13,566 nt of DNA, from NCBI GenBank assembly GCA_003165115.1, contig PLSJ01000243.1, positions 200 to 13,765 on the forward strand, read 5' to 3'. How positions within the stretch are numbered: position 1 is the stretch's first letter; the number at the start of each line of letters is the position of its first letter. The DNA is from Syntrophaceae bacterium. GTDB taxonomy: Bacteria; Desulfobacterota; Syntrophorhabdia; Syntrophorhabdales; WCHB1-27. The notes below the pieces were generated by a model. It had not been told where the DNA came from and did not search any database. It worked only from the letters and a program-made list of their open reading frames with translations. This document shows, piece by piece, positions 1 through 13,566 of this stretch. A program made the position numbers and the translations under genes.

Positions 1-1205
1 CCCTCGGTGGTCATCTCTATCTCTTTCCCCAGCTCCTGCGAGAGGTCCCGGATCAGCCTCTTGAAGCGGCTGAAGGTGGTGGCGATAGGGAGCATGCGGA
101 TATTGAGGGTGTTGTCCCTCAGCTCCGCCGTCAGCCTTTCGACCTCCTCGGCTATCGAGGTGAGATCGTTGTCGGCCCGGACCGATGCGGTTTGCGTGAG
201 CCGCGCCTGGGCCGTCACCAGTTCCCCTATCAGGTTTACGAGGATGTCGAGCTTTTCCGACGGGACCCGCACGCTCGATATGTTTTCTTCTTTCGTCTGC
301 GCCTTCTCTTTTATCTTCCGGACATGCTGCTGCTCCACCAGCGCCGATTCTACCGCCACCGGCGTCACGACGCCCTTCTCGACCAGCGTCTCGCCGAGGT
401 ACTTCCTCTCCTCCAGGACCGACTGAAGGTCCTTATTCGTGATGTCGCCACGCTCGACGAGGATCTCTCCAAGCTTGTAATCCTTCTCCGCGAGCGTGTC
501 GATCCGGAGGTCGCTTACGTCCTCCACGAAGATGAAGACATCCCTCACGGCATCGATTCCCCGGTCGGTGGTGAGGACGACGTCCCATCTGGTGTAGCAC
601 TGCTCAGGGTCGATATCCTCGAGAGAGGGTATGCCGTCCGTGTAGGCCGTGACGGTCGCCTCCCCCATGGCGGCCAGCTCGTCGAGGAGAAGGACCGGGT
701 TCGTCCCGGCGGCGAAGATGCCGGGGTTGGGGGCGAACCGGATGCGATAGGTGACGGACTCTCCCGGCGCGGGCGAGGCCCCCGGGGAAGAGGAAGGGCG
801 CACCGGGGGGCGGTCGGTCCCCTCCCCTTCCGCCGGGGTCAGGCGTTTAAAGGCGTCAACGATGTGTTCCATTGCCTGCCCCGGCACGTCAACACCTGCC
901 GGTTCGTCGAGCATGCTCTTTATGATGTCCCTCGCCTCCAGGGTAAGGGAGATAAGGTCTTCGGATACGTGTATCTCTCCGCTTCTTACCCTGTCGTAGA
1001 CGGTCTCTATCCCGTGGGTGAACGCGGCTATGTCGTAGAAGCCGAACATGGCGCCGGAGCCTTTGATCGTATGCATCACCCGGAACACCTTTCCGATCAG
1101 CTCGGTGTCGTCCGGCGCATCTTCCAGTTCCAGCAGCGCATCTTCGAGCGTGGAGAGCAGCTCGTATGCCTCTTCCCTGAATGCTTCCCTGTGTGTATCG
1201 ATCAT
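1..1205 (-). CDS. cheA: Chemotaxis histidine kinase CheA (N-terminal 401 residues; 3' end outside window)
   Basis: CheA autophosphorylates on its HPt domain and passes the phosphate to CheY. I translated it from the minus strand; the frame is open to the window edge. Residues about 1-105 form the HPt domain, with phospho-acceptor H45 in the motif MHTIKGSGAMFGF. Residues about 150-238 form a P2-like region. Residues 244-292 hold two repeats of the form xLGExLVExG, resembling an MshEN domain. From about residue 308 the dimerisation helices follow (VNLIGELVTAQARL, then the MLPI stretch). The ATPase and CheW-like domains would lie beyond base 1. The ATG overlaps the CheY stop in an ATGA junction, implying translational coupling. 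The family call is firm. The cellular output (flagellar, pili or other) cannot be read from this fragment. Confidence 0.95.
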   Translation of the reverse strand, partial: MIDTHREAFREEAYELLSTLEDALLELEDAPDDTELIGKVFRVMHTIKGSGAMFGFYDIAAFTHGIETVYDRVRSGEIHVSEDLISLTLEARDIIKSMLDEPAGVDVPGQAMEHIVDAFKRLTPAEGEGTDRPPVRPSSSPGASPAPGESVTYRIRFAPNPGIFAAGTNPVLLLDELAAMGEATVTAYTDGIPSLEDIDPEQCYTRWDVVLTTDRGIDAVRDVFIFVEDVSDLRIDTLAEKDYKLGEILVERGDITNKDLQSVLEERKYLGETLVEKGVVTPVAVESALVEQQHVRKIKEKAQTKEENISSVRVPSEKLDILVNLIGELVTAQARLTQTASVRADNDLTSIAEEVERLTAELRDNTLNIRMLPIATTFSRFKRLIRDLSQELGKEIEMTTE

Positions 1206-1567
1206 CCGAGCACCTTCTTCGTGACTGAAACGAGCTGCTCCGGCCTGAAGGGCTTGACGATCCATCCCGTCGCCCCCGCCTGCCTGCCTTCGACCTTCTT
1301 CGATTCCTGCGATTCGGTCGTGAGCATGATAACCGGGATAAACTTGTAGGCGGCGTGGCTTCTCACACCCTTTATCAGACCTATGCCGTCGAGGTTCGGC
1401 ATATTCAGGTCGGTGATGACCATATGGACCGGGCTGCCGTCGAGCTTACGGAGGGCGTCTTTCCCGTCGACCGCTTCCACGACTTCATAACCCGCCTGTC
1501 TCAGGGTGAAACTGACCATCTGCCGCACGCTCGCCGAATCGTCGACCGTCATGATGCGCTTACTCAT
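1202..1567 (-). CDS. cheY: CheY-like single-domain response regulator
   Basis: This is a 121-residue stand-alone receiver domain, the normal size for CheY. The acidic pocket D9/D10, phospho-acceptor D53 in VITDLNMP, switch residue T83 in IMLTTES and K105 in VKPF are all present, so it should be a working phosphoryl acceptor for the CheA encoded next. It has no output domain, so it probably acts by protein binding, at a flagellar switch or another target. The gene overlaps the STAS gene upstream by 8 bases and the CheA gene downstream by 4 bases, so the three are surely co-transcribed. A purine-rich AGAGGGG lies before the ATG. It could serve a non-flagellar chemosensory pathway; the sequence does not decide this. 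Confidence 0.95.
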   Translation of the reverse strand: MSKRIMTVDDSASVRQMVSFTLRQAGYEVVEAVDGKDALRKLDGSPVHMVITDLNMPNLDGIGLIKGVRSHAAYKFIPVIMLTTESQESKKVEGRQAGATGWIVKPFRPEQLVSVTKKVLG

Positions 1568-1913
1568 GGCATACCCCCTCTGCCCAGAGGCACCCCGCGC
1601 CCTTGCCGGGCGTGCAGCCGGCCGGGCGAAGCCAACCCGCGTGCCGCGCCGTCTGCCTGAAGACGGCAGACCGGTCGTCGAGGATACGCAGGGGCCTGTT
1701 CATGCGCACCGATGTCCTATGGGCGGCGCAAAAGAGCTGCAAACAGGAAACATCGATACCGGTAACCGACGAGACCTCGATCTCGATGCGGTCCGCGCTC
1801 TTGAGAGAGTCGCTGAGTATGGACCTTAACCTGGTCGCATAATCGATCATCAGCGCACCGGACAGATGGAGAATCGTGGCATTGCCATTCGCCTCTACTC
1901 GACAATCACTCAT
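1560..1913 (-). CDS. STAS-domain protein (anti-sigma-factor-antagonist-like) in the che operon
   Basis: A 117-residue protein with a STAS fold like SpoIIAA: an N-terminal beta region (NATILHLSGAL), then the conserved loop VTGIDVSCLQLF. S56, two residues after D54, aligns with the phosphorylatable serine of SpoIIAA-type proteins. The Cys-rich C-terminal tail (about residues 91-117, ending near CLWAEG) is, from memory, typical of STAS proteins encoded beside MCP and CheA genes in Deltaproteobacteria-like genomes. A good Shine-Dalgarno (GGAGGT) sits just before the ATG. The gene begins 23 bases after the MCP-like gene and overlaps cheY by 8 bases. Its partner is unknown: no serine kinase or anti-sigma factor is visible here, so an adaptor role in the chemosensory complex is inference. 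Confidence 0.82.
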   Translation of the reverse strand: MSDCRVEANGNATILHLSGALMIDYATRLRSILSDSLKSADRIEIEVSSVTGIDVSCLQLFCAAHRTSVRMNRPLRILDDRSAVFRQTARHAGWLRPAGCTPGKGAGCLWAEGVCHE

Positions 1914-1936
1914 GGGTCTACCTCCGTATCGCCTTT

Positions 1937-3688
1937 TCAGAATAGTTCGACATTACCCGCAAACCCCTTCTCTTCGACCATGGACCTGGTCCCGTTGATC
2001 CTGTCCATGTGGGCCTGGTGCAGCGAGCGTTCCTGGTTCATGGTATACCGCGCGGCCAGTTTGCCGAGAGGGTCGGCGCCACTGCCGGGTCGTGCGCCCG
2101 TAGCCGGTTTCCGCAGGGCCGTCACCTGCCGCAGTCCTGCGATGACGCCGTTCACGACCTCGTTTGTCCTTTCGTGGGCGGTGATACCTTCCACCACTCT
2201 CTCTATGCCGGACGTAAGCTCTCTCGATTCTTTCTCCAGCCCGTCGAGAAGCGTAAGGAGTCTTTCCTGCGATCGGGCAAGAGATTCGAGCAAAGGAGCC
2301 ATCCCTGCCGTTATCGCGCCGATCTCGCTTTTCCGCCCGCGGGCGTCGCCCGTGGTCCGCAGTTGCAGCGCCGTGTCGCTTACCTGCGTGAGCGTACCCG
2401 TCATCTCCACCGTCTGGCCGCGGGTAGTATCCGAAAGCGCCCTGATGGCTTCGGCGAGGACGCCGAGGGCGCCGCCGTTGTCCTCCGTCCGTGCCGCCCT
2501 TATCTGGGCGTTGATGGCGATCAGCTCTATTTCCGAGGCGATCTCTTCGATGTCGTTGACAAAGGCGGAGAGGTTTTCGATGAGGCCGGAGACGTAGTCC
2601 ACGGCCCCGCCCAATTCCTTGTCGGTGTCGCCGTTCCGGTCCAGCGAGCCGATCACGAACGACACGGAACGGCCCAAATCGGAGAGAAAAGAAGAATGCT
2701 CCCTGCCGGAGGCACCGGTCAGGGTCTCCGTCTCTTTCACCATCCCCGACAGCCTGGCCGCTATCCCGTGAAGTCCGTCCATCATCCTTCCCACGGCGGA
2801 CGATATCTCTCCTCTTGCATGATCGAGCTGATCGATCTGGAGACCGCCTATCTCGAAGATGACCTCGACGATGGCGTCCTCGCCGGCCAGCTCGTCGAAC
2901 GCATCGATCACGTGCTCGATCTGCTGCCTCGTGATATCGTGGAATTGCAGAGAGGAGATCACCTCCGACATGTCGGCCGATACCTCTTCCGATCCCGAAG
3001 CCAAACGGATGGCGGTCTGCGACGATGACCCGCGCTTCTCCGACAGCGTCGAGAGGCTCGAAGCGAGCCCGTCGAGTATCTCCAGCGTCCGGTCGTGGGT
3101 CGCGTCCCTGGCGGCGAAGATCATGGAAAGGGTTTGTTTCACGGCTTTATGCAGCGCGATAAGGCCCTTGAGAATACCGTCCGATTTTGACGCTATGACG
3201 ACGGACAGCTTTTCCACGTGCTCCGCCAGCGTGTCGAAACCGCCGTCTTCGTTGAGCCGCGCGTTTTCTATCCTTGTCGAGACGCCGAGCATATGGAGGT
3301 GTTTGACGATGGTCTTGAAAACGGACAGGGGCCTGTAGGCGGTCTCGACCACGTGCAGCATGCGCAGCAAAGACCCGGAGTCGCGTTCAAATTTCACCTG
3401 CGATTCCCGGAAGTATTCATCTACGGAACGGACCGCGTCACCGAGTCTTTCCGTATCTTTCCCGACTTCCTCACCGGTGACCAGCCCCACGACCGACTCC
3501 GCCGCCTTCGCTATTGAGGCCGCCCTGCGGGAGAGGTCCTGCAGATACGCCCCTATGGAGAGAAAATCTTCCTCGGTGGACGCATTCAGGGCCTTAAGCT
3601 GCTTTGCGCCCGACCGGATGATCTCCCCGGCGGTCTTCTCCCCGGCATACCGGCCCGCGTGCTCGTTTATGGGTGGAACATCGTACAT
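1937..3688 (-). CDS. Soluble MCP-like chemotaxis protein with two receptor-tip-like motifs
   Basis: 583 residues, almost entirely helical in character, with no signal peptide or membrane segment, so a cytoplasmic protein. Residues 389-421 (start ELIAINAQIRAAR) match the MCP signalling hairpin that contacts CheA and CheW, but with changes at normally fixed positions. Residues 130-162 (start HLHMLGVSTRIENARL) look like a second, more diverged copy. Between them, residues 248-256 (QFHDITRQQ) resemble the catalytic DxxxQ motif of the phosphatase CheZ. It is first in a run with the STAS, cheY and cheA genes, so it is probably the input or scaffold protein of this system. The ATG at 3688 is the only standard start in the open frame, since a stop lies at 3716-3718, yet no Shine-Dalgarno precedes it. 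The sensed signal is unknown. Confidence 0.85.
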   Translation of the reverse strand: MYDVPPINEHAGRYAGEKTAGEIIRSGAKQLKALNASTEEDFLSIGAYLQDLSRRAASIAKAAESVVGLVTGEEVGKDTERLGDAVRSVDEYFRESQVKFERDSGSLLRMLHVVETAYRPLSVFKTIVKHLHMLGVSTRIENARLNEDGGFDTLAEHVEKLSVVIASKSDGILKGLIALHKAVKQTLSMIFAARDATHDRTLEILDGLASSLSTLSEKRGSSSQTAIRLASGSEEVSADMSEVISSLQFHDITRQQIEHVIDAFDELAGEDAIVEVIFEIGGLQIDQLDHARGEISSAVGRMMDGLHGIAARLSGMVKETETLTGASGREHSSFLSDLGRSVSFVIGSLDRNGDTDKELGGAVDYVSGLIENLSAFVNDIEEIASEIELIAINAQIRAARTEDNGGALGVLAEAIRALSDTTRGQTVEMTGTLTQVSDTALQLRTTGDARGRKSEIGAITAGMAPLLESLARSQERLLTLLDGLEKESRELTSGIERVVEGITAHERTNEVVNGVIAGLRQVTALRKPATGARPGSGADPLGKLAARYTMNQERSLHQAHMDRINGTRSMVEEKGFAGNVELF

Positions 3689-3775: not shown

Positions 3776-5422
3776 CTATGTAAGTGAAAGGAGATAGCTT
3801 CGGAGATTACTGACGTTTTTGTTGTTTCTCAGACCGAGCTTGTTCCTGATATTGTTCCTGTGGGTCTCGATGGTCGCCCTGGACACATTGAACAATTGCG
3901 CTATCTCCTTGCTTGTCTTGCCGTTCCTGATCAGATTGGCGATCTGGATTTCGCTTGGCGTAAAGCGGGCATATATCGCAGCCATCCTCTGCGCAAAGGG
4001 TGAGATGAATTCATTCAGGCCCGACTCGATCACCTCCAGATGCATTCTCTGGGTGTCGGCCAACTGTGTCTGCCTCAACTTTTCGATACTCGGAAAAATG
4101 AGCGCTTTCACGTTCGTGAGGATAGCATTCTCCAGCGTTGTCCTGTCTTCTTCCCTGTGCTTCAACAGCACCTTCAGGGCGGCATTCGCCTCCCCGAGGT
4201 CGAGGGCGTTCTTCTCCAGCTCTTTTTCCCTTGCCTTCAGCTCTTCCTCGGCCCTCCTGCGCTGCGTGACGTCCTGGAGCATGGCCAGAAAGTAATCGAT
4301 GGAACCGTCCGGCCTGCGCACGCATTTCACGGAAATCGTCGTCTCCACGACCCGGCCGTTCTTGCCGATAAACCTTTTGTCCATCGAGTATCCGTCGATC
4401 TCGCCGGCCAGGACCCGGCTGAACGAGGCAATATCCGCGTCCACGTCGTCGGGATGGGTCAGCTCCGTCCATGTCATGCGCAGCAGCTCGCTCCGTTCGT
4501 ACCCCAGGATGCGACAAATCTCGTCGTTAACCTCGAGGATTTGTTTGCTCGGCAGCGTGGTCGCCATGCCGATCAGCCCGAGATCGAAGTAGCGCCTGAA
4601 CTTTTCCTCGCTCTCGCGCAGCTTCTCCTCCGCGTCTTTGCGTTCGGTGATATCGACGGCGGTCCCCTCGTAATGCAGGATCGTCCCCTTCGGGCCCCTG
4701 ACCGTCCGGGCGTTGAGCGAGATCCAACGCTTCCGGCCGTCCTTCCGGTAGACCTCGCACTCGAAATTCTTCACCGCGCTCCTTTCGTCAAGAAGCTTCT
4801 TGAGACGTGGGTACGCGGCCGGGTCGACATGGACCCCGGCAAGGTCCCCGACGTCCCGTAAAAGCTCTTCCGGTGTGTCGTATCCGTGAATCCGGGCCAG
4901 GGCGGGGTTCGCGGAAAGGTACCGGCCGGCCGGGCTCGTCTGGTATACCCCTTCGATCGCGTTTTCGACGATCGTGCGGTACTTCGATTCACTCGCCCGA
5001 AGCGCGTCCTCCATCAGCTTGCGCTCCGTGAGGTCCGTCAGCGACCCCAGTATGCCGGGCTTCCTCCCGAACTCGACAAAGGTGGTGTCGACGCGCGCGA
5101 ATTTTTCCTCTCCCGATTTGGTGATGACCGTCGCTTCGTATGTCGTGGGAGCGGTATTGCCCGTTTGCTGACGGGCCGCCGCGATTGACTTCACCAATTC
5201 CCGCATCCCCGGTGAAACGATGTCCCAGAACTTCATCGACGACAGGTCTTCCAGGGTGTATCCGGTGCTCGCGGTAAAAGCGGGGTTTATATACACGAAC
5301 CGCTCCCCCTGGACGACGAAGATGCCCGTGGCGGAGTTCCTCGTGAGGGCGGCGAAGTTTGCATCCTTTTCACCCGGGTCCGTGTGCGCCCGTGTGCCCC
5401 GGGTACGCTCTTCGCTGCTCAT
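3776..5422 (-). CDS. Transcriptional regulator with three PAS domains and a C-terminal LuxR-type HTH
   Basis: 548 residues from the chosen start. There are three PAS domains at about 21-137, 145-262 and 271-389; the first two end in a DLTERK or DITERK-type PAC motif and the third in DVTQRR. A charged coiled coil follows (about 390-427), then a helical linker and a LuxR/FixJ-type HTH at 486-548 (FTPSEIQIANLIRNGKTSKEIA, ending in a THRNNIRNKLGL recognition region). There is no kinase or receiver domain, so it probably senses a ligand, redox state or partner directly and binds DNA. The frame stays open upstream to 5551, but I chose the ATG at 5422 because it overlaps the TetR stop as TGATG, with an AGAGG upstream. 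The PAS ligand cannot be told; no haem- or flavin-defining residues stand out. Confidence 0.9.
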   Translation of the reverse strand: MSSEERTRGTRAHTDPGEKDANFAALTRNSATGIFVVQGERFVYINPAFTASTGYTLEDLSSMKFWDIVSPGMRELVKSIAAARQQTGNTAPTTYEATVITKSGEEKFARVDTTFVEFGRKPGILGSLTDLTERKLMEDALRASESKYRTIVENAIEGVYQTSPAGRYLSANPALARIHGYDTPEELLRDVGDLAGVHVDPAAYPRLKKLLDERSAVKNFECEVYRKDGRKRWISLNARTVRGPKGTILHYEGTAVDITERKDAEEKLRESEEKFRRYFDLGLIGMATTLPSKQILEVNDEICRILGYERSELLRMTWTELTHPDDVDADIASFSRVLAGEIDGYSMDKRFIGKNGRVVETTISVKCVRRPDGSIDYFLAMLQDVTQRRRAEEELKAREKELEKNALDLGEANAALKVLLKHREEDRTTLENAILTNVKALIFPSIEKLRQTQLADTQRMHLEVIESGLNEFISPFAQRMAAIYARFTPSEIQIANLIRNGKTSKEIAQLFNVSRATIETHRNNIRNKLGLRNNKNVSNLRSYLLSLT

Positions 5423-6063
5423 CACCGGGCCTCTGGCGGCGGAACCTCGCTGCCCGCTGTTCTTAACGACCTGACGAACCGGTCGAAGATGATATGCGAC
5501 AGTCTCTCGGGGCCCATGCTCCCCTTCGGGTTGTACCAGGCGAAAATCCAATTGACCATGCCCAGGAGACAGAATGTGAGGACCGTCAGGGTTTCCTTGT
5601 CGACCGTCGGGCCCAGGTAGGAGGAGAGGGTTTCGGTAATGGTGGCGTAGTATTTCTTTTCCTTGGCCTTGATCTCCCTGAGTCTGGACGACAGCAGGTT
5701 ATGGGCCTCGTTGAGCAACGTTTTTGCCATGTACATATGTTCGCTGTAGGTTTTTACGTGGGTGAAGATAATAAGCCGGATCCTCTCTTCGGGGTCGTCC
5801 GCCTTTTCCAGGTCCCGCCGCATGTTGTGCAGGACCAGGTCCATAAAAGTGGACGAAATAAAGTAGAGGATGTCTCCCTTGCTTCCGAAATAGTGGTACA
5901 TTCCGCCTTTACTGATCTTCGCCGCCGCCGAGATATCGTCCATGCTTGTCTCGACATAGCCCCTCGCGCTGAACAATTTGGCGGCGGCCGCGGCAATCGC
6001 CATTACCTTCTTGTCCGACCTGGGCGGCTCTTTGAGCGCTCCTTTTTTTGTCCCTTTTATCAT
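5422..6063 (-). CDS. TetR/AcrR-family transcriptional repressor
   Basis: 213 residues. The N-terminal HTH spans about residues 17-65 (AAAAKLFSARGY, then MDDISAAAKISKGGMYHYFGSK), as in TetR repressors. The C-terminal ligand domain includes LLGMVNWIFAWYNPKG, which recalls the KstR2/FadR-like branch that often senses acyl-CoA esters; that ligand class is inference. The frame is open back to 6273, inside the flavoprotein gene, but a sigma70-type promoter at 6089-6117 puts the transcript start near 6082, so the ATG at 6063 is the sensible start. No strong Shine-Dalgarno precedes it. It is co-transcribed with the PAS/LuxR-HTH gene (one-base overlap). It lies directly downstream of the B12-mutase operon and may control that operon or itself. 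No clear TetR operator palindrome was found in its promoter. Confidence 0.9.
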   Translation of the reverse strand: MIKGTKKGALKEPPRSDKKVMAIAAAAAKLFSARGYVETSMDDISAAAKISKGGMYHYFGSKGDILYFISSTFMDLVLHNMRRDLEKADDPEERIRLIIFTHVKTYSEHMYMAKTLLNEAHNLLSSRLREIKAKEKKYYATITETLSSYLGPTVDKETLTVLTFCLLGMVNWIFAWYNPKGSMGPERLSHIIFDRFVRSLRTAGSEVPPPEAR

Positions 6064-6163: not shown

Positions 6164-7723
6164 CTACTTTTCTCCGGCGGCATTGATGCCCGCGATCCGG
6201 CCGAAGACGATGCAATTCGGGATGGCGTTTCCACCAAGCCGGTTGGTCCCCTGCACGCCGCCGCAGACTTCACCGGCCGCGAACATGCGGGGAATGGGAT
6301 TACCCCAGATGTCGATCACTTGTGCCCTCGCGTCGATCCTGATGCCGCCCATGCAGTGGTGGATGGCGGGCCACTGAGCGATGGCGTAGAACGGTCCCTC
6401 CAGCAGGGGCGTCATGTTTTTTGTCATCGGTTTGTTGAATTCGGGGTCTTTTCCCTCTTTGACGTACGAGTTATGCAGGGCTACCGTCTCCTCAAGGCCG
6501 GCTTCGGGTATGCCCAGCTTTTGGGCCAGCTCGCCGATTGTATCCGCCTTGACGAACCTTCCCCGTGCAATGCCTTTTTCGATCTCTTCCTTGCCGACCG
6601 CCAGCTTGTCGAACACCTTCCCGTTCAGGATCGCATACGTCGGCTTCTGGCCCGACGCTATCTGGGTATTGGAGACCACGTCGCGCCGCTCCAGCTCGTT
6701 CACGAACCTCTTGCCCTGCTTATTGACGTAAAATAAGCCGAAGCCGGTCCCGGAATAAGGGTGGATGGCAAAAGAGTCTATGATGCCCTTCTCGGGCTCG
6801 GCGCACGGATAAAGCTGAATGAATTCAAGATGGAGGGCGTCGGCGCCGACGGACTGCGCGTACCGGATCATCTCACCGGTCGCTCCCGGCTGGTTCGTGC
6901 AATTGTACTCGGGGACAAGGGTGGGGTTAAAGCTCATGCGCATCTTCACGTCCCTGCTGAACCCTCCAGCCGCTATGATGAGTCCGCGGTTGATCCTGAT
7001 ATTGCTCTTCTTCTTTCCCGCCGTTACTTCGACGCCCAGGACCGGGCCTTCCGCATCCTTCCGCCAGATCCACGTCACCCGTGTATTCAGCCTGATTTTT
7101 GCGCCCCGCTTCTCGGCAAGCTTTCTCAGGGGCTCCGTAAACCCGCGGCCGACACCCTCGTCCGCCTGATAGCTTCGATACGCCGAGTGGCCCCCGATGC
7201 GGGGCAGCGTCTCCCTGATCGCGGCCCCGTTGTCGATAAGCAGGTTGAGGCCGTCGGGGGCGCCTTTTACCATGACCTCGACCAGCTCCGGCATGTTGAA
7301 ATAGTCCCCGCCCTTGAGCGTGTCCGCTTTGTGGCGTTCCCAACTGTCTTCGCCGAGGTTAAGCTTCTGCCTGAGGTGGAGCTTGCTGTCCCAGGAGCAA
7401 TAACCGCCCCCTGAGATGATGGAATTTCCCCCGTATACGGGCATTTTCTCCAGGATGACCACGTTGGCTCCCGCCCCGGCGGCCTCCGCCGCGGCTGCCA
7501 GGCCGGCAAAGCCGGAACCCACGATCACCACGTCGACCCGCTCGTCCCACCTGGCCGGCAGTTTTCGCGTCCCGGCCTCCGCCGGCGCGGGATTGAGGTT
7601 GAGGGCCAGGCCCGTTGCGGCCAGGGCGCCTACGCCGATCCCCGACTTCAGGAACCCCCGGCGATTGACGTTCGATGCGCCGGGACCTTTAATCTCCTCG
7701 GGTGAACCATTGCATTTCTTCAC
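6164..7723 (-). CDS. Tat-exported FAD-dependent oxidoreductase, fumarate-reductase/flavocytochrome c flavoprotein family
   Basis: 519 residues. A Tat signal (NRRGFLKSG at 20-28, hydrophobic stretch to about 45, likely cleavage near AEA-G at 50/51) predicts export to the periplasm with FAD bound. The GxGxxG FAD motif is at 69-74 with E92 at the end of the second strand (VVILEK). Active-site residues of the Shewanella soluble fumarate reductase appear conserved: R347 (ERRD), H456 (HHCMGG) and R495 (GTNRLGGNAI). The His of that family's QxHP motif is Tyr here (Y305 in QLYP), so the substrate may not be fumarate. No CXXCH haem motif or FMN-binding domain is present, so a separate electron donor is needed. 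A GTG start with AAGGAGGTG ahead is clear. It is last in the mutase operon, 36 bases after the MmgE/PrpD gene. Other possible substrates include mesaconate-like or aconitate-like enoates and urocanate. Confidence 0.88.
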   Translation of the reverse strand: MKKCNGSPEEIKGPGASNVNRRGFLKSGIGVGALAATGLALNLNPAPAEAGTRKLPARWDERVDVVIVGSGFAGLAAAAEAAGAGANVVILEKMPVYGGNSIISGGGYCSWDSKLHLRQKLNLGEDSWERHKADTLKGGDYFNMPELVEVMVKGAPDGLNLLIDNGAAIRETLPRIGGHSAYRSYQADEGVGRGFTEPLRKLAEKRGAKIRLNTRVTWIWRKDAEGPVLGVEVTAGKKKSNIRINRGLIIAAGGFSRDVKMRMSFNPTLVPEYNCTNQPGATGEMIRYAQSVGADALHLEFIQLYPCAEPEKGIIDSFAIHPYSGTGFGLFYVNKQGKRFVNELERRDVVSNTQIASGQKPTYAILNGKVFDKLAVGKEEIEKGIARGRFVKADTIGELAQKLGIPEAGLEETVALHNSYVKEGKDPEFNKPMTKNMTPLLEGPFYAIAQWPAIHHCMGGIRIDARAQVIDIWGNPIPRMFAAGEVCGGVQGTNRLGGNAIPNCIVFGRIAGINAAGEK

Positions 7724-7759: not shown

Positions 7760-9127
7760 TCATCCCAAAAGGAGCAGAGGGACCAGGCCACGCACGTCGT
7801 CCATCGCATCGAGTCCGTCCACGGCCCGGATGATGGCGTCTGCCTGTTTTTCGGGAACGGGTTTCGCCGCGAACCCCAGGCAATCCCTGAAGCGCTGCAT
7901 GTGCTCCTCCCCGGACAGGGGCTTTTCCGGGAAACCCGGAACGAAATCTATGCTTTTCAGGTGCTCTTTTCCGCTTTTCATCAGGACCCGCATGTCCAGG
8001 GGCGTATGTCCCCGCTTTTCCATGTCGGCCTCCGAGATCACCTCGACCTTTTCCGCAAGCCTCAGGACCTCCGGGTCCCTGATCATTGCTTCCTCGAAAT
8101 AGGCCAGCTTCGAGCCTTTGCGTAACAGAGCGGACGCCACGCAGTAGCGGATGCTGAACTGTGCGTTGACCTTGGGATTGCTGCCGACCTGAAAAGGATG
8201 GCCCACCAGTTTATACGTGTAAGGCGGGACGGTGATCTCCACACGTTCGACGTCACCGGATTCGATGCCTTCATCCGCCATCAGCCCCAGTATCACGTCC
8301 GTGCTCCCCTGGGTAAGGCCGCAGCTCGGGTATTTCTTGAACACCAGCTTCCGCACCTCATAGGTCGCGCCGAGACCCGAAAGCACCTTTTCCGGCGACA
8401 CGCGGTCCCTGCCGAAAAGGTGGAAGTAGCCGTACACCCCGTCGAGGAAGTTTACCGGTCCCGTGATGCCGCGCCCCGCGAGCCTGGCGCAGGTCACGCC
8501 GCTTTCCGCGACCCACCCTTCGATCACCCTCACCGCGAGGGAGCCGTCCACGTTGGCCTGAAAGCTCGCCCCGCACTTGTTGAAGGCAAGGGCCAGGGCG
8601 TTCCAGGTCTCCTTTTCGGAAAGACGGAGTATCTTCGCGGCCGCCGCCGTCGAGGCGAAGGGCACGGCCACGCCCGTCGGGTCGAAGCCGTCGTATTCCG
8701 GCTCGCCCAGGTTCAACCTCACCGCCAGCTCGCATCCAACCGCGACGGCCGTCAGGAAGTCCTTCCCGCTGCACCCGCCGGCCAGCTCGGACGCGGCCAG
8801 CGCGGCCGGTATCGCGGCCGAGCCTATGTGGGCGCCGGGCGCGAGGGCGTCGCAAAAGTCGAGGGCCCGGGCCATTACGCCATTCACAAAGGCCGCCTGC
8901 TGGGCAGGGACCTTGCCGCCGTGGACGAGGATGGACGCCTCCGGTGCGCCTCCGATCTCTTTCGCCATATTCACGACCGCCTCGCAGCCGTCCGCGGAAG
9001 CGCCCGCGACCGTCGTGCCGAGGACGGCAAGCACCTGCTTCTTTATCAGCTCCACGGCCGAAGGCGGCACGTCGCCGAAGGCGGTGCCGCGGACAAAATC
9101 AACGACTCTCCGTTCGGTCTCCATCAT
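7760..9127 (-). CDS. MmgE/PrpD-family protein (2-methylcitrate dehydratase / aconitate decarboxylase superfamily), atypical active site
   Basis: 455 residues, full length for the family. Fold hallmarks are visible: ALDFCD followed by H100-x-GS, the mid-protein ITGPVNFLDG, KKYPSCG at 264-270 and NAQFSIRYCVASALL near 321-335. Known members dehydrate 2-methylcitrate, decarboxylate cis-aconitate or epimerise iminodisuccinate. Here several usual catalytic positions differ: GFHPTG reads GFDPTG (D149), the K-x-LH-x-G motif reads VRVIEG (V199, I202), and the His after YPSC is Q273. The usual dehydratase or decarboxylase chemistry is therefore doubtful; a hydratase, isomerase or epimerase acting on the mutase product is inference. 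No signal peptide, so cytoplasmic. Two adjacent ATG codons (9127, 9124) follow a GGAAGGTGA; the first is used here. It lies 43 bases after the TRAP gene. Confidence 0.88.
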   Translation of the reverse strand: MMETERRVVDFVRGTAFGDVPPSAVELIKKQVLAVLGTTVAGASADGCEAVVNMAKEIGGAPEASILVHGGKVPAQQAAFVNGVMARALDFCDALAPGAHIGSAAIPAALAASELAGGCSGKDFLTAVAVGCELAVRLNLGEPEYDGFDPTGVAVPFASTAAAAKILRLSEKETWNALALAFNKCGASFQANVDGSLAVRVIEGWVAESGVTCARLAGRGITGPVNFLDGVYGYFHLFGRDRVSPEKVLSGLGATYEVRKLVFKKYPSCGLTQGSTDVILGLMADEGIESGDVERVEITVPPYTYKLVGHPFQVGSNPKVNAQFSIRYCVASALLRKGSKLAYFEEAMIRDPEVLRLAEKVEVISEADMEKRGHTPLDMRVLMKSGKEHLKSIDFVPGFPEKPLSGEEHMQRFRDCLGFAAKPVPEKQADAIIRAVDGLDAMDDVRGLVPLLLLG

Positions 9128-9170: not shown

Positions 9171-10190
9171 CTATTTTCCGGTGTTCTTCAGGAAATCCCG
9201 TGCGAACCTGAGCACCTGGTCACCCGGCAGGCCCCTGGCTTTCATGTTCTTCACGTACTCGTCGAAGAGGGGCTCGACCTTCTGTGCCCACCTGGCGTTC
9301 TCTTCTGCGGAAAGGGTGATGACCTTATTGCCCCTCTTGGCGGAGAACTTCCGCCCCCCGTCGTCGATCCCCGCCCAGACCTGAGCCTGTTTTTCTATCC
9401 ACTCCTGGTTTATCTGCTCGATTGCCTTCTGGTCCTGGGGGGAGATGGCGTTCCACTTGGCCTTGTTCATCACGACGACGAAGGTCGCCGAGGAGGCGAT
9501 GCCATAGTCCTCGGTCGTATATTTGATCACCTCGCCCAGTTTCCAGCCGTCCAGTATCTCATAAGCCCCGGCGATACCGTCGCACACGCCCTTCGAGATG
9601 GCGTCATAGGAGTCTCCCATGGGCATCGCGACAGGCGTACCGCCGAGGAGCGCTATCATTCTGGCGGTGCTCCCGTAGGTCCTTATCTTCATGCCTTTCA
9701 GGTCTTCGAGTTTGGCTACGGGCTTCTTGGTGTGGAGGATGCCGGGGGTTTGGCCGTGGAAGTACATCACCTTCACTTCGTCCAGCTCCTTCGGCTTGAA
9801 CTTCGCGTAGTAGGCGTTCATGAGGTGCGTCGCCGCCGTCCCGTTCGGATACCCGAGGGGGTAGTCCAGCACCTCGGACAGGGGAAATTTCCCCATCGTA
9901 TAGCCGAGGACGCAGTTTCCCGCATCGACCACGCCCTGGACGATGCTGTCGTAGGTCTGGGCAGGCGCGGTCAGCGTCCCGCCCGGATAATGGCGGATCC
10001 TGACCCTGCCCGCTGTCCGTTTCTCCACTTCCTTGCACCATTCCGCGGTAACCTTCCATAGCTCGTGGCTCGGTGGAAAAAACGTCGAGAACCTGAGCTG
10101 GACGCTCTTTTCCTGGGCACACACAAGCGACCCGGCGAACAGGCTCATCAAGAAGACACATGCCACCACACGCGCGACGTTCCTTTTCAT
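9171..10190 (-). CDS. TRAP transporter substrate-binding protein, DctP family
   Basis: 339 residues. A Sec signal peptide (KRN, hydrophobic core 6-22, cleavage after VCA at 25) sends it to the periplasm. The mature part has the DctP pattern: LRFSTFFPPSHE at the first strand, GRVRIRHYPGG, then LKGMKIRTYGS, where R170 is the position that clamps a substrate carboxylate in this family, followed by GDSYDAISKGVCDG. It should deliver an organic acid to a DctQ/DctM permease, but neither permease gene lies between the neighbours in this window. The frame is open back to 10250, but the ATG at 10190 has GGGAGG five bases ahead and begins a proper signal peptide. Its place between glmL and the MmgE/PrpD gene suggests that its ligand feeds the pathway. 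Ligand identity is unknown. Confidence 0.92.
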   Translation of the reverse strand: MKRNVARVVACVFLMSLFAGSLVCAQEKSVQLRFSTFFPPSHELWKVTAEWCKEVEKRTAGRVRIRHYPGGTLTAPAQTYDSIVQGVVDAGNCVLGYTMGKFPLSEVLDYPLGYPNGTAATHLMNAYYAKFKPKELDEVKVMYFHGQTPGILHTKKPVAKLEDLKGMKIRTYGSTARMIALLGGTPVAMPMGDSYDAISKGVCDGIAGAYEILDGWKLGEVIKYTTEDYGIASSATFVVVMNKAKWNAISPQDQKAIEQINQEWIEKQAQVWAGIDDGGRKFSAKRGNKVITLSAEENARWAQKVEPLFDEYVKNMKARGLPGDQVLRFARDFLKNTGK

Positions 10191-10195
10191 TCGAT

Positions 10196-10201
10196 CCTCC
10201 C
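10196..10201 (-). promoter_or_regulatory. Ribosome binding site fixing the TRAP protein start
   Basis: GGGAGG on the minus strand ends 5 bases before the ATG at 10190. It selects this start over an in-frame ATG 60 bases upstream that would spoil the signal peptide. Confidence 0.8.
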
Positions 10202-10273
10202 TTCTCGTCCTTTGTACTCGTATGCAGACATACTCATCGTTCCCACCCATGCCTCTCGTCGGGGTTGCCCGAT

Positions 10274-11689
10274 TTACAGCGAGGCCGCCTTCAAATACTT
10301 CCTGGCAATTCTCAGGGCCGCGGCCGGAAACGCCTCGGCCAGCAACCCTATGCCGTACAGCATGTAATCCCGGTCTATGTACGCCTTCGGGGCTTGGGGC
10401 TTCAGGCTCCAGGGAGTTTCCGGGTTGAAGAGCGCGGACCGCAGGATCCTTTCCGGCTGCAGGCCGTACCTGAATATGCCGCCGGTCCCTATCATGTTTT
10501 CCACCGAAAGCAGGTTCTTCCCGTGCTGGACCATTATCTCGCCGACCACGGAAAATTCCTGCCGCAGGGTCCCTGCATGACGCCGGACGGCCGTCGAGAC
10601 AGCGGCCTCGGCGAGCACTATATCGACATTGAGCCCGACGTCCGTCGAAGGCACGTGCCCCACGTTGCGGGACAGGTAGTCGATATGCCGCCGGGCGTCA
10701 CATTCCCGCCCGTCCGCTTCGGGCACGATTGCCCTCAGCCTCGACAGGAACGCGTCGGGGCCGATAAGGTCGTAAATCGTCGGGGCGTTGTACCTGATCC
10801 CCAGGTCGCCTTCCACCGTCCTTTTTATCCGCAATTCGGGCAGGCCCCTGACGACCGTCTGGGGTGTCGCGGGAGAGGAGTCGGCGACGGAATGGATGTT
10901 CGTCGTGGCCCCGCCGACCTCGACGATGACGAGGCTGCCTATGCCCGGGTCGTCCCCGGCGCCGTTGGCGAGCAATGCCGCCGCCTGCAGCGTCGCCTTC
11001 GGCGTCGGCACGATCGGCGAGCCGATGAACGCGGCCGCCTTGTCCAGGCCTTTCGCCTTGGTGATGTGGGCGATGAAAATATCGCGGATGAGGGCCTGAG
11101 CCGGTTCCACCTCTACCGTCTCCAGGTTCGGCAGCACGTTTTTTGTCGTGTAAACCTGCTTGCCCCCCTGCTCCAGGGTCTCCCTGACCCTGCCCGTGGT
11201 CACGCGGTTGCCCGCGACCAGTATGGGACAGCGGATGTTTGATGCGGCAAGCATGCCCGCGTTGTGGATAATGACTTTCTTGTCGCCCCCGTCCGTCCCG
11301 CCGCACAGGAGGACGATGTCGCACGCCGCCGATTCTATCTCGCGGACTATCTCTTCGTCGATCTCGAAGCCGTAAGCGCAGACGACTTTCGCGCCCGCGC
11401 CCAGACACGCCCTGCGCGCCGCCTCTAAGGTCAGCTCGGGGACGAGCCCTATGGCCGCCATCTTCAAGCCGCCGGCGGCGCTGCTGCTCGCGTATTTGCC
11501 ATCCACCTTCTCCGGGTCCACCCCGCTTGACGCGGCCAGGTCGGTGAGGGCGTCGTTCAGTCCGATAGTGATGTCCGTACCGACCGTCGTGGGCGTCTGG
11601 GCCCTCCCCAGGATTATTTCTTTTTCGAGGTCCACCGCCGTCACTTTCGTATAGGTGCTTCCGAAATCCACCAGCAAGTAGGTGCTCAT
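10274..11689 (-). CDS. glmL: GlmL/MutL, ATP-dependent reactivating factor for the B12 mutase
   Basis: 471 residues of the ASKHA ATPase fold. The phosphate-1 loop is LLVDFGSTYTK (5-15), the phosphate-2 loop is IVEVGGATTN (255-264), and the adenosine motif is MIGTGGIFRYG (399-409). The family signature YASSSAAGGLKM is at 67-77. GlmL proteins are found with glutamate mutase genes and are thought to swap damaged cobalamin out of inactivated mutase, as the reactivases of diol dehydratase do. The neighbours agree: glmS starts 27 bases upstream and the catalytic subunit precedes that. ATG start with AAAGGAAG ahead. The name MutL here is unrelated to the mismatch-repair MutL. Confidence 0.95.
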   Translation of the reverse strand: MSTYLLVDFGSTYTKVTAVDLEKEIILGRAQTPTTVGTDITIGLNDALTDLAASSGVDPEKVDGKYASSSAAGGLKMAAIGLVPELTLEAARRACLGAGAKVVCAYGFEIDEEIVREIESAACDIVLLCGGTDGGDKKVIIHNAGMLAASNIRCPILVAGNRVTTGRVRETLEQGGKQVYTTKNVLPNLETVEVEPAQALIRDIFIAHITKAKGLDKAAAFIGSPIVPTPKATLQAAALLANGAGDDPGIGSLVIVEVGGATTNIHSVADSSPATPQTVVRGLPELRIKRTVEGDLGIRYNAPTIYDLIGPDAFLSRLRAIVPEADGRECDARRHIDYLSRNVGHVPSTDVGLNVDIVLAEAAVSTAVRRHAGTLRQEFSVVGEIMVQHGKNLLSVENMIGTGGIFRYGLQPERILRSALFNPETPWSLKPQAPKAYIDRDYMLYGIGLLAEAFPAAALRIARKYLKAASL

Positions 11690-11716: not shown

Positions 11717-12151
11717 TTAGTCGATGCCAAGATCAGCTTTCAGGGCCTGCACCGCTTCATCTGCCGTGCACGTATTCGGGAATGCGCGGTTGAAGCCCAT
11801 TGCCGTGAAGCGCCGCTCCACTTCGGGCCAGTTCTTTTCAAGCTCCAGCGGCGCCGCGACGGTGCCGCCCACATAGAGGATGATGTCCTTAATGCCCGCC
11901 TCGATGCATTTGTCCCTCAGCCCCTCGCAGTCGAGTAAGCCCATTCCGAACATCGACGACACGAGGATGGCGTCGGCGTCAATCTCGATGGCGGCGTTGA
12001 TGAATTCCTGCTGGGGAACGACGGCGCCAAGAAAAGCGACGGTGAACCCGGCGTCCTTGAACGCCTTCTGAAGCACCCATGCGCCGATCATGTGGCAGTC
12101 GGACCCGATCGTGCCGATGACGATACTCTTGTTTACCTCTCTCTTTTCCAC
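11717..12151 (-). CDS. glmS: B12-binding (sigma) subunit of a glutamate-mutase-type enzyme, GlmS
   Basis: 144 residues of the small cobalamin-binding Rossmann subunit. The base-off/His-on signature is complete: DxHxxG as GSDCHMIG (His22 is the lower cobalt ligand), S-x-M in VSSMFG in place of the usual S-x-L, and GG in YVGGTVA. It closely resembles the Clostridium cochlearium GlmS as I recall it. It carries adenosylcobalamin into the barrel of the catalytic subunit encoded 36 bases upstream. The start is GTG, preceded at 5 bases by a long GGAGGAGGAG. Cofactor function looks intact even though the partner's substrate site is not the classical one. This is not glucosamine-6-phosphate synthase, which shares the symbol. 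Confidence 0.95.
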   Translation of the reverse strand: MEKREVNKSIVIGTIGSDCHMIGAWVLQKAFKDAGFTVAFLGAVVPQQEFINAAIEIDADAILVSSMFGMGLLDCEGLRDKCIEAGIKDIILYVGGTVAAPLELEKNWPEVERRFTAMGFNRAFPNTCTADEAVQALKADLGID

Positions 12152-12187: not shown

Positions 12188-13566
12188 CTATTTCTTCTTC
12201 AACGTGGATGCGAATTGCAGGTCCCGGACCACCATGTCGAAGCTCGCTTTCCGGCCTTCCTTCCTCTCCCTCTCCGCCAGTTTTTCCCTGTGGTATTCCT
12301 TCACTTCCGGAGGCAACGGGACGTTCCCCGTCTCGAAATACCTGACCGCGTTTTCGGCGTCGCGCATCACCATGACGTTCCCTTTATTGTGCTTCCAGGG
12401 GGTGAGCATCGTGTCTATCCATCCCGCCTCGACCCCTTTGCACATGCCAACGGCCATATCGCCGTCGCCGGCCTCAAGGCATTTCTCCATTATCGCCCTT
12501 ACTTCCATCTCGATCATCAGCTCTTCAAGCTTCAGCTTCTCGCTCTCGGCGATCTTCTGGGTCCCCATCAGGGTGAGCAGATGCCTCGCGATCCTGACGG
12601 ACATGGCCATGCCTTCCTTCGTGGGGGTCGCGAATGCCTCGTCCTGGCATTTCAGGATGACGCCGGTGATGCCGCCCATGATGGCGATCACGGCGTTCCA
12701 CGCGATCATCGCGTTCGCTTCTTCCGCCCGCGCGGGCCAGGCGCCCAGGAACGGGAAAGCCCCCGTGAAGAAGCCGATGTCGTGATAGCCGAAGCGCTCG
12801 CAATACTCGTGACAGAGCTTTTCGGTCACCCTGATCATCGCGATGTCCTGGATCATGTTCATGTTGAGCCCGTGTTCGAGGAACTGGTATTTCACCCCCT
12901 GCTCGGCGGCCAGCAGGGATTCGGAGACGCAGACGAACGACCGGTACCCGGCGCTGTCATATCCGGTGAGGTTACACGGGTTGTGGGGGCATTCCGGCAC
13001 GCCGTTTTCCGTGTAAATCGCCGCCAGCCTGGCCTCGTACTGGTTTATCCTGATCTCGTCCTCCAGAGGGATGTCCTTGCAATGGGCTATCACTTCCTGG
13101 AGGGACCGCGTATTGCACGCGTTCCAGCCCGCGGCCAGCGCGATTTCCGAGGCCAGCCGCCCGTCCTCGTCGGTAGAGTTGAGGGTGAGGGGCACGCGGC
13201 TCGCCTTCTTTATCCGCCTCGCCTCCTCCACTCCGAAATTGACGATGGGCCAGCCGTTCAGCATGGACATGCCTTCGGCCCGGCTTCTCTTGATCCCGTC
13301 GGCGGCACTCTTGTAATCGTTTTTCCGCGTATAGGAATCGGAGTAGATGTTCCAGATGGCGTTCGGCGCAAGGTCCGATTCCTCTTCCACGTAACGGAGG
13401 CCCTCGACGACGTATTCGGTGAGGGCCCGTCCGAATTGCGGAAAGAGCACATGCGTCCCGTTCTCTTTCGCCTCCTTGAGCTTGAGGGCATGGTTCTTGC
13501 CCTGGGACAACTCCCTGGCCGCGGCGATACACTCGTCCAGGTCCGCAACCTCTTTCCCCGTTTCCC
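12188..13566 (-). CDS. Catalytic (epsilon, GlmE-type) subunit of an adenosylcobalamin-dependent mutase, divergent substrate site; 5' end outside window
   Basis: 458 visible residues of a TIM-barrel mutase. The frame stays open to the right edge, and its first visible residues (ETGKEVADLD) align with residues about 26-35 of Clostridium GlmE, so roughly 25 residues are missing. A TTG at 13510 is therefore not the real start. Strong family blocks are SLLAAEQGVK, NMIQDIA, EAFATPTKEG and MLNGWPIVNFG. K305 and E309, equivalents of K326 and E330 that contact the cofactor's adenosyl group, are kept. Of the arginine claw that holds glutamate (R66, R100, R149) only R80 (= R100) remains; the others are Q43 and N129. 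E171, Y177 and Y181 are N151, E157 and H161. I infer a mutase for a substrate other than glutamate. It heads the visible operon with glmS and glmL. The family call is firm; the substrate is unknown. Confidence 0.92.
   Translation of the reverse strand, partial: ETGKEVADLDECIAAARELSQGKNHALKLKEAKENGTHVLFPQFGRALTEYVVEGLRYVEEESDLAPNAIWNIYSDSYTRKNDYKSAADGIKRSRAEGMSMLNGWPIVNFGVEEARRIKKASRVPLTLNSTDEDGRLASEIALAAGWNACNTRSLQEVIAHCKDIPLEDEIRINQYEARLAAIYTENGVPECPHNPCNLTGYDSAGYRSFVCVSESLLAAEQGVKYQFLEHGLNMNMIQDIAMIRVTEKLCHEYCERFGYHDIGFFTGAFPFLGAWPARAEEANAMIAWNAVIAIMGGITGVILKCQDEAFATPTKEGMAMSVRIARHLLTLMGTQKIAESEKLKLEELMIEMEVRAIMEKCLEAGDGDMAVGMCKGVEAGWIDTMLTPWKHNKGNVMVMRDAENAVRYFETGNVPLPPEVKEYHREKLAERERKEGRKASFDMVVRDLQFASTLKKK

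Follow-up and report, generated by a model that had tools for sequence, protein, structure and literature searches.

A rebuilt migrating-group site in a clade of glutamate mutase-like B12 enzymes points to a carbon-skeleton mutase of another substrate

Introduction

Does a protein that retains the radical machinery of glutamate mutase, having lost most of its glutamate ligands, still act on glutamate? The question is raised by a stretch of 13,566 nucleotides from a Syntrophaceae bacterium (assembly GCA_003165115.1, contig PLSJ01000243.1, positions 200 to 13,765; hereafter, the window), which ends in a gene (12188..13564) for a protein resembling GlmE, the catalytic subunit of glutamate mutase. 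Proteins of this family, PF06368, tend to be read as glutamate mutase, and those considered here are mostly named "methylaspartate mutase epsilon subunit" by their sources. We distinguish at least four pocket classes within PF06368; in that of the window, the site of the migrating group is wholly discarded, while the radical machinery is kept. With reasonable confidence, we read this class as an adenosylcobalamin (AdoCbl)-dependent carbon-skeleton mutase that is descended from the glutamate mutase superfamily and does not act on glutamate. All window features described below are on the minus strand.

Results

Substrate pocket of the catalytic subunit

The contig (C116; 13,765 bases, the window being C116:200-13765) ends within the mutase gene and removes its start, hence the frame is open at the 5' end and approximately 25 N-terminal residues (GlmE numbering) are missing; the remaining frame, encoding 458 amino acids, is open and intact. 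Its PF06368 score, 356.4 bits against a curated cut-off of 26.6, places the protein in the superfamily, and it is the only PF06368 match found in the genome, which is 75% complete. In a phmmer comparison with Clostridium cochlearium GlmE (1cb7), residues 2-449 align with residues 26-470 of the chain (E 3.4e-82) at about 35% identity.

According to PMC10947579, R66, R149 and E171 of GlmE hold the migrating glycyl group, and R100 holds the acrylate half. The phmmer alignment agrees with two MAFFT alignments on which residues of the window protein stand opposite these positions. R66 is replaced by Q43, in the block Q43-F44-G45-R46 (13427..13438, coordinates computed by hand from the frame), where V69 also becomes R46; R149 and H150 are replaced by N129 and S130 (13175..13180); and in the segment from N151 to H161 (13082..13114) E171, Y177 and Y181 are replaced by N151, E157 and H161, respectively. 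Further changes are F297 to W276 and I334 to T313. Thus, of the arginine claw (R66, R100 and R149, with E171 and Y177) only R100, the acrylate-side residue, is kept, as R80 (13325..13327); N123 is also retained, as N103. The first-pass annotation of this DNA, made from the sequence by eye, had counted five of six glutamate contacts as replaced, and all three alignments bear this out. Its statement that the key blocks align without gaps holds for R100 itself, but a five-residue insertion lies shortly before it. We also considered that the claw residues might be conserved at shifted positions, and rejected this, as the three alignments agree and none restores the claw.

On the other side of the active site, K326 and E330, which we take to be the adenosyl-side residues, are present as K305 and E309, the ends of the segment 12638..12652, as had been noted at the outset. 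Hence the ligands of the glycyl group are lost and the acrylate-side arginine is kept, that is, the enzyme retains one anchor and drops the other.

Conservation and distribution of the clade

A protein search scored 7999 candidates and yielded 505 hits; the homologue counts given here and below cover the best 120 of these 505 (65-94% identical). R100, N123, H181, K326 and E330 are each present in 120/120, as are F67 and G68, and none of the 120 has R66, R149 or E171. Position 66 is occupied by Gln in 110 homologues (Met in 6, His in 3, Ala in 1), position 149 by Asn in 93 and Val in 27, and position 171 by Asn in 65 and Ser in 43, the remainder being mixed and never Glu. E177 is found in 113, Trp297 in 119 (Trp or Phe in all 120), and Tyr or Phe at position 94 in 112. 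Position 69, where the window has R46, is less uniform: R/Q/K in 105/14/1 homologues and R/Q/H in 19/8/3 of 30 locus rows.

In a 72-row tree, for which canonical and homologue rows were thinned, the sampled members of the clade are monophyletic with support 100/100 and a stem of 1.76; they are spread over four phyla and stand apart from canonical GlmE (17 rows) and from two further pocket classes. The rebuilt pocket, when read along the PF06368 phylogeny as had been suggested for this gene, therefore falls in one clade. Several long branches meet in this tree (the clade with L069 and L122-L124), which makes the order of the classes unsure, but not the clade itself. The sole row labelled "other" inside the clade (P0120) is one without Gln at position 66. 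The dN/dS ratio was 0.014-0.12 in all eight pairs compared, dS being saturated (>1) in four of them; judged from these alignments, the clade is under purifying selection. The possibility of a decayed gene was rejected by the conserved pocket and the low dN/dS.

Scanning of approximately 85,000 species genomes with two conserved peptide patterns revealed at least 28 loci in 27 genomes, a number that is a floor; with the window, this makes 29 loci and 28 carrier genomes. Many of the carriers belong to uncultured lineages; among the others are Sporomusa silvacetica, Sporomusa sp. KB1, Geobacter argillaceus, Sporobacter termitidis and two Gordonibacter. The window genome appears to belong to the phylum of G. 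argillaceus, as identical contigs came up in the samples drawn around the two. When three phylum samples (398, 296 and 297 genomes, the last overlapping an earlier sample) were searched, relatives above 38% identity were found only in the genome at the centre of each sample, hence the clade is rare and patchy. In a fourth sample of 299 genomes, PF06368 exceeded the cut-off in 79; of the 30 best pockets, the ones that were read, 29 are canonical, as is the second copy (L061) of the genome at the centre of the sample, and a few clade members are possible among the weaker matches. No plasmid relatives were found at the DNA level.

Some loci carry two members of the clade: in L046 (7077-10057) the two sit side by side, with Gly in one and Glu in the other at pocket position 177, and in L039 (10016-15241) they are separated by about 2 kb and have different residues at positions 147 and 171. 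Such pairs may serve two substrates or form a mixed dimer.

The two further pocket classes are defined by other residues. The first, LL (eight rows: L004-L010 and L068), keeps R66, R100, Y177 and Y181 and has Leu at both 149 and 171; the second, PW (five rows: L011, L065-L067 and L070), keeps R66, R100 and R149 and has Pro171 and Trp177. Among three LL neighbourhoods (L171, L172, L174), TctA was observed in two and a 2-hydroxyacid dehydrogenase in one. Two PW neighbourhoods (L173 and L176) contain a glycyl radical enzyme scoring far below every listed cut-off, L173 additionally having a radical-SAM activase and a second PFL-like enzyme; a third (L175) contains caprolactamase/acetophenone-carboxylase-like subunits and a distant MmgE/PrpD protein.

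Separation from the methylaspartate pathway

If members of the clade were glutamate mutases in function, they should resemble the glutamate mutase equivalog and occur together with methylaspartate ammonia-lyase. The truncated window protein scores 332.1 bits with TIGR01503, below the equivalog cut-off of 390.1, and nine other members (480-505 amino acids) score 285-358 bits, that is, all ten scored members are below it. As both the claw and the equivalog score are lacking, we assign the protein to a new substrate class of PF06368 mutases.

A second, fully canonical GlmE pocket (L061-L064) is present in four of the 28 carriers (G298, G305, G313 and G314), and methylaspartate ammonia-lyase (PF07476) exceeds its cut-off in exactly these four. 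In the other 24 carriers, where no canonical GlmE was seen, the lyase nowhere exceeds the cut-off, and in the window genome, 75% complete, it gave no match. The remaining second copies belong to this clade or to the other classes (L065-L070, and a copy in G299 that is split into two pieces, at L177); one 26.8-bit match in G306 was left out of the pocket reading. The two-piece copy had been considered as a canonical GlmE and was rejected as such, since its N-terminal piece has the PW pocket and both pieces are more than 80% identical to L065/L066. Thus, the clade appears to lie outside the METHYLASPARTATE pathway, and the distribution of the lyase is the strongest functional separation that we found.

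B12 subunit, reactivase and adenosyltransferases

The mutase gene is followed on the minus strand by genes for a GlmS-like protein, GlmL, a TRAP solute-binding protein (DctP), an MmgE/PrpD-family protein, a flavoprotein and a TetR-family regulator, with intergenic gaps of 23-43 bases from the mutase through the flavoprotein. The GlmS-like B12-binding subunit (11717..12151, 144 amino acids) has the motif DCHMIG (DxHxxG) and scores 158.6 bits with TIGR01501 (cut-off 135.8), and the GlmL-type reactivase (10274..11689, 471 amino acids) scores 537.7 bits with NF040745 (cut-off 475). The early view that both partners are intact thus stands, and a separate S subunit with this motif next to GlmL is the arrangement of a glutamate mutase system. 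With the window included, GlmL was found in 27 and GlmS in 24 of the 29 loci, the missing ones (two and five) being due to cut contigs or the choice of open reading frames. Of the 24 S rows, 23 have the B12 motif, the exception (L040) being a frame of 124 amino acids probably lacking its start.

Genes for corrinoid adenosyltransferases are found nearby in 12/29 loci, divided equally between the CobA/BtuR and PduO types (six each), as assigned from neighbour clusters of which one member each was scanned; none was seen among the frames scanned in the window. The occurrence of two unrelated families in the same slot argues for AdoCbl dependence.

The MmgE/PrpD protein and the flavoprotein

In the window genome, PF03972 matched only the MmgE/PrpD-family protein (7760..9127), which is a frequent neighbour of the clade, with an orthologue (at least 45% identity) in 21/29 loci. 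All 21 rows keep the Asp, Asp, His and Lys core columns of cis-aconitate decarboxylase (CAD). At CAD positions 160 (His) and 208 (Lys), presumably substrate-binding basic residues, they have Asp in 21/21 and Leu in 20/21, respectively, which is not the CAD pattern; this comparison omits the distant rows L044 and L045, and the second position lies near gaps.

The flavoprotein (6164..7723), an FAD-dependent reductase of the fumarate/urocanate reductase type, is present in five of the 29 loci, the other four copies being 53-66% identical to that of the window. Its best PDB match is the urocanate reductase UrdA (6t85, 280.6 bits), nearly tied with the flavocytochrome c fumarate reductase (279), and its TAT-signal match, 20.8 bits, is just below the Pfam cut-off of 22.7. 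All five copies keep R402, H504 and R544 (fcc3 numbering). H365, which we take to line the substrate site together with these three, is Tyr in 5/5, as in UrdA and not as in fumarate reductase.

Transporters, regulators and other neighbours

The DctP protein of the window (9171..10250) comes closest to TRAP proteins whose structures contain coumarate, cinnamate, caffeate, ferulate or other aromatic acids (the TarP-like subfamily), and the DctPs of four other loci match the same set. The incomplete 3.9 Mb genome (G000) has 17 DctP-type genes, including this one at C116:9448-10290; many carboxylic acids, some perhaps aromatic, may sustain this organism. Three loci (L042, L045 and L046) have UbiD-family decarboxylases close to the mutase; the models that match these next best, below cut-off and suggestive only, are phenylphosphate carboxylase or hydroxyaryl decarboxylases. 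Acyl-CoA ligases are found in L037, L042 and L045, and thiolases in L040 and L045.

The TetR-family regulator gene (5422..6063) has its longest frame opening at 6273, position 6063 being a proposed start. Beyond it, inspection by eye indicated a PAS-repeat protein ending in a LuxR-type helix-turn-helix (3776-5551), a possible regulator, and, within 3-3688, genes of chemotaxis type: a CheA-like frame with an Hpt domain, truncated at the window edge, a receiver resembling CheY, a short STAS-like frame and a sensor-like protein of 583 amino acids. In the two Sporomusa loci L034 (scanned) and L041 (clustered), genes for a methyl-accepting chemotaxis protein and CheW precede the mutase genes; the genomes of these two loci contain no close MmgE/PrpD protein. 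Directly ahead of the window, a run of 13 N at C116:187-199 (L002) indicates that the assembly is scaffolded or masked there.

Discussion

As stated above, we consider it likely that the clade comprises AdoCbl-dependent carbon-skeleton mutases working on something other than glutamate. The proposal of the first-pass annotation, a live B12 mutase with another substrate, is thereby supported: the pocket is conserved, its carriers form one clade, dN/dS does not exceed 0.12, and the lyase does not reach its cut-off in 24/24 carrier genomes with no canonical GlmE seen. In the mechanism that we propose, the 5'-deoxyadenosyl radical would abstract a hydrogen adjacent to the carboxylate bound to R100, in the manner of glutamate mutase, and a non-glycyl group R would then move from C3 to C2 (R-CH2-CH2-COO(-) <-> CH3-CH(R)-COO(-)). 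The flavoprotein, where present, might make R-CH2-CH2-COO(-) from R-CH=CH-COO(-), and the MmgE/PrpD protein might act on the branched product or its precursor. Judging from residues, the mutase and both these partners appear to have each kept one carboxylate site and lost a further one. This shared loss speaks against the branched dicarboxylates suggested initially, which we do not favour (given the presumed roles of the partner residues), and for an uncharged or aromatic R. Hence R probably carries no carboxylate, and the conversion that we favour turns a 3-substituted propionate into a 2-substituted one through migration of a group that is not glycyl and is possibly aromatic.

Several observations weigh against this interpretation. 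The predicted model of the mutase has pLDDT below 50 at residues 1-4, 47-49, 77-84 and 98-104, which include R80 and N103, and with the model this weak around them the geometry of the pocket is not established. In ten of the 24 carriers scored as negative for methylaspartate ammonia-lyase, a weak match lies under the cut-off. An MmgE/PrpD protein is missing or distant in 8/29 loci (L034, L041-L045, L048 and L053), the genome of L053 having one elsewhere, at L052; the seven carriers with no close copy nearby have, genome-wide, a best relative of only 27-35% identity, hence this protein is not obligatory. The transporters adjacent to the mutase also vary (TRAP, TctC, MFS, SSF, lactate permease or CitMHS type) and thus indicate no single substrate. 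Finally, in the members that have Arg at position 69, R46 could bind a second carboxylate.

The last point leads to the rival that we take most seriously, while still holding it improbable: a dicarboxylate mutase of the 2-methyleneglutarate, succinate/methylmalonate or 2-hydroxyglutarate type, in which R46 replaces the lost claw arginines. The site of R46, three positions from the lost R66, is Arg in 105/120 homologues, and relatives of the MmgE/PrpD protein (cis-aconitate decarboxylase, IDS-epimerase and 2-methylcitrate dehydratase) use di- or tricarboxylates. However, position 69 is Gln or Lys in 15/120 homologues and Gln or His in 11/30 locus rows, so that an essential carboxylate ligand is unlikely there, and the idea of the first-pass annotation that R46 might be a replacement charge is weakened; moreover, the Asp and Leu at the two basic CAD positions and the absence of the fumarate-type H365 from all five flavoproteins do not suit such substrates. 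Far less probable is a glutamate mutase with a relocated claw, still making 3-methylaspartate. The fold, the S subunit and GlmL are indeed those of glutamate mutase, GlmS and GlmL even passing the NCBI equivalog cut-offs, but none of the ten scored catalytic subunits reaches TIGR01503, and the four genomes with the lyase hold a second, canonical GlmE. The loss of five of six substrate contacts would also suit a catalytically dead or regulatory paralogue; we give this the least credence, given the invariant K326 and E330, the B12 motif in nearly all S rows, the reactivase in 27/29 and the adenosyltransferase in 12/29 loci, and the low dN/dS. Among substrate pairs considered on paper only, homocitrate/2-methylcitrate and succinate/methylmalonate were set aside as fitting poorly with the lost carboxylate ligands, and the levulinate pair, as nothing points to levulinate.

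Within the favoured propionate conversion, a more specific and rather speculative version is an AdoCbl-dependent aryl mutase, in which an aromatic or heteroaromatic ring would move from C3 to C2 of propionate in a neophyl-type radical rearrangement. It is suggested by the retention of R100 with the glycyl anchor gone, the aromatic residues at positions 67, 297 and 94, the UrdA-like Tyr365, the proximity of DctP to binders of aromatic acids, and the UbiD neighbours in three loci. In such a scheme, the acid would enter through a TarP-like TRAP system, the flavoprotein would reduce a cinnamate- or urocanate-like acrylate to the 3-arylpropionate, and the branched acid would be processed by the MmgE/PrpD protein. 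On the other hand, the flavoprotein is found in just 5/29 loci, no aryl-specific residue is proven, and 15 of the 16 other DctPs of the window genome are equally near the aromatic-acid subfamily, which makes the transporter a weak clue for this operon.

To our knowledge, carbon-skeleton B12 mutases are few. If the substrate is found, the metabolism of soil, sediment and gut bacteria would gain a new B12-dependent rearrangement, and the clade would offer a natural contrast from which to learn how the claw determines the group that migrates. Since cultured bacteria carry it (Sporomusa silvacetica, Geobacter argillaceus, Sporobacter termitidis and Gordonibacter), the proposal is directly testable. 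Narrow term searches of an open-licence library found no paper joining "methylaspartate mutase" with "MmgE" and none on glutamate-mutase homologues, which does not show their absence from print.

Comparison with known systems

The MmgE/PrpD neighbour shares PF03972 and PF19305 with cis-aconitate decarboxylase, IDS-epimerase and PrpD, at about 97 bits only, and departs from the first in its Asp and Leu at the two basic positions. The flavoprotein has Tyr365, R402, H504 and R544 in common with UrdA, whereas other substrate-side columns differ and its TAT signal is marginal.

2-Methyleneglutarate mutase is an AdoCbl carbon-skeleton mutase whose substrate has no amino group and whose single chain includes a fused B12 domain; in contrast, the window system has a separate S gene. 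The closest system is glutamate mutase itself (GlmES, EC 5.4.99.1; C. cochlearium, 1cb7/6h9e), with which the clade shares the fold, the radical machinery, the reactivase and the separate B12 subunit. The clade differs from it in having no claw, no TIGR01503 pass and no link to methylaspartate ammonia-lyase, with R66, R149, E171, Y177, Y181, H150, V69, F297 and I334 all replaced in the window protein. Within PF06368, the LL and PW classes resemble the clade in that R100, N123, K326 and E330 are kept and E171 is lost in all three; unlike the clade, both keep R66 and Y181.
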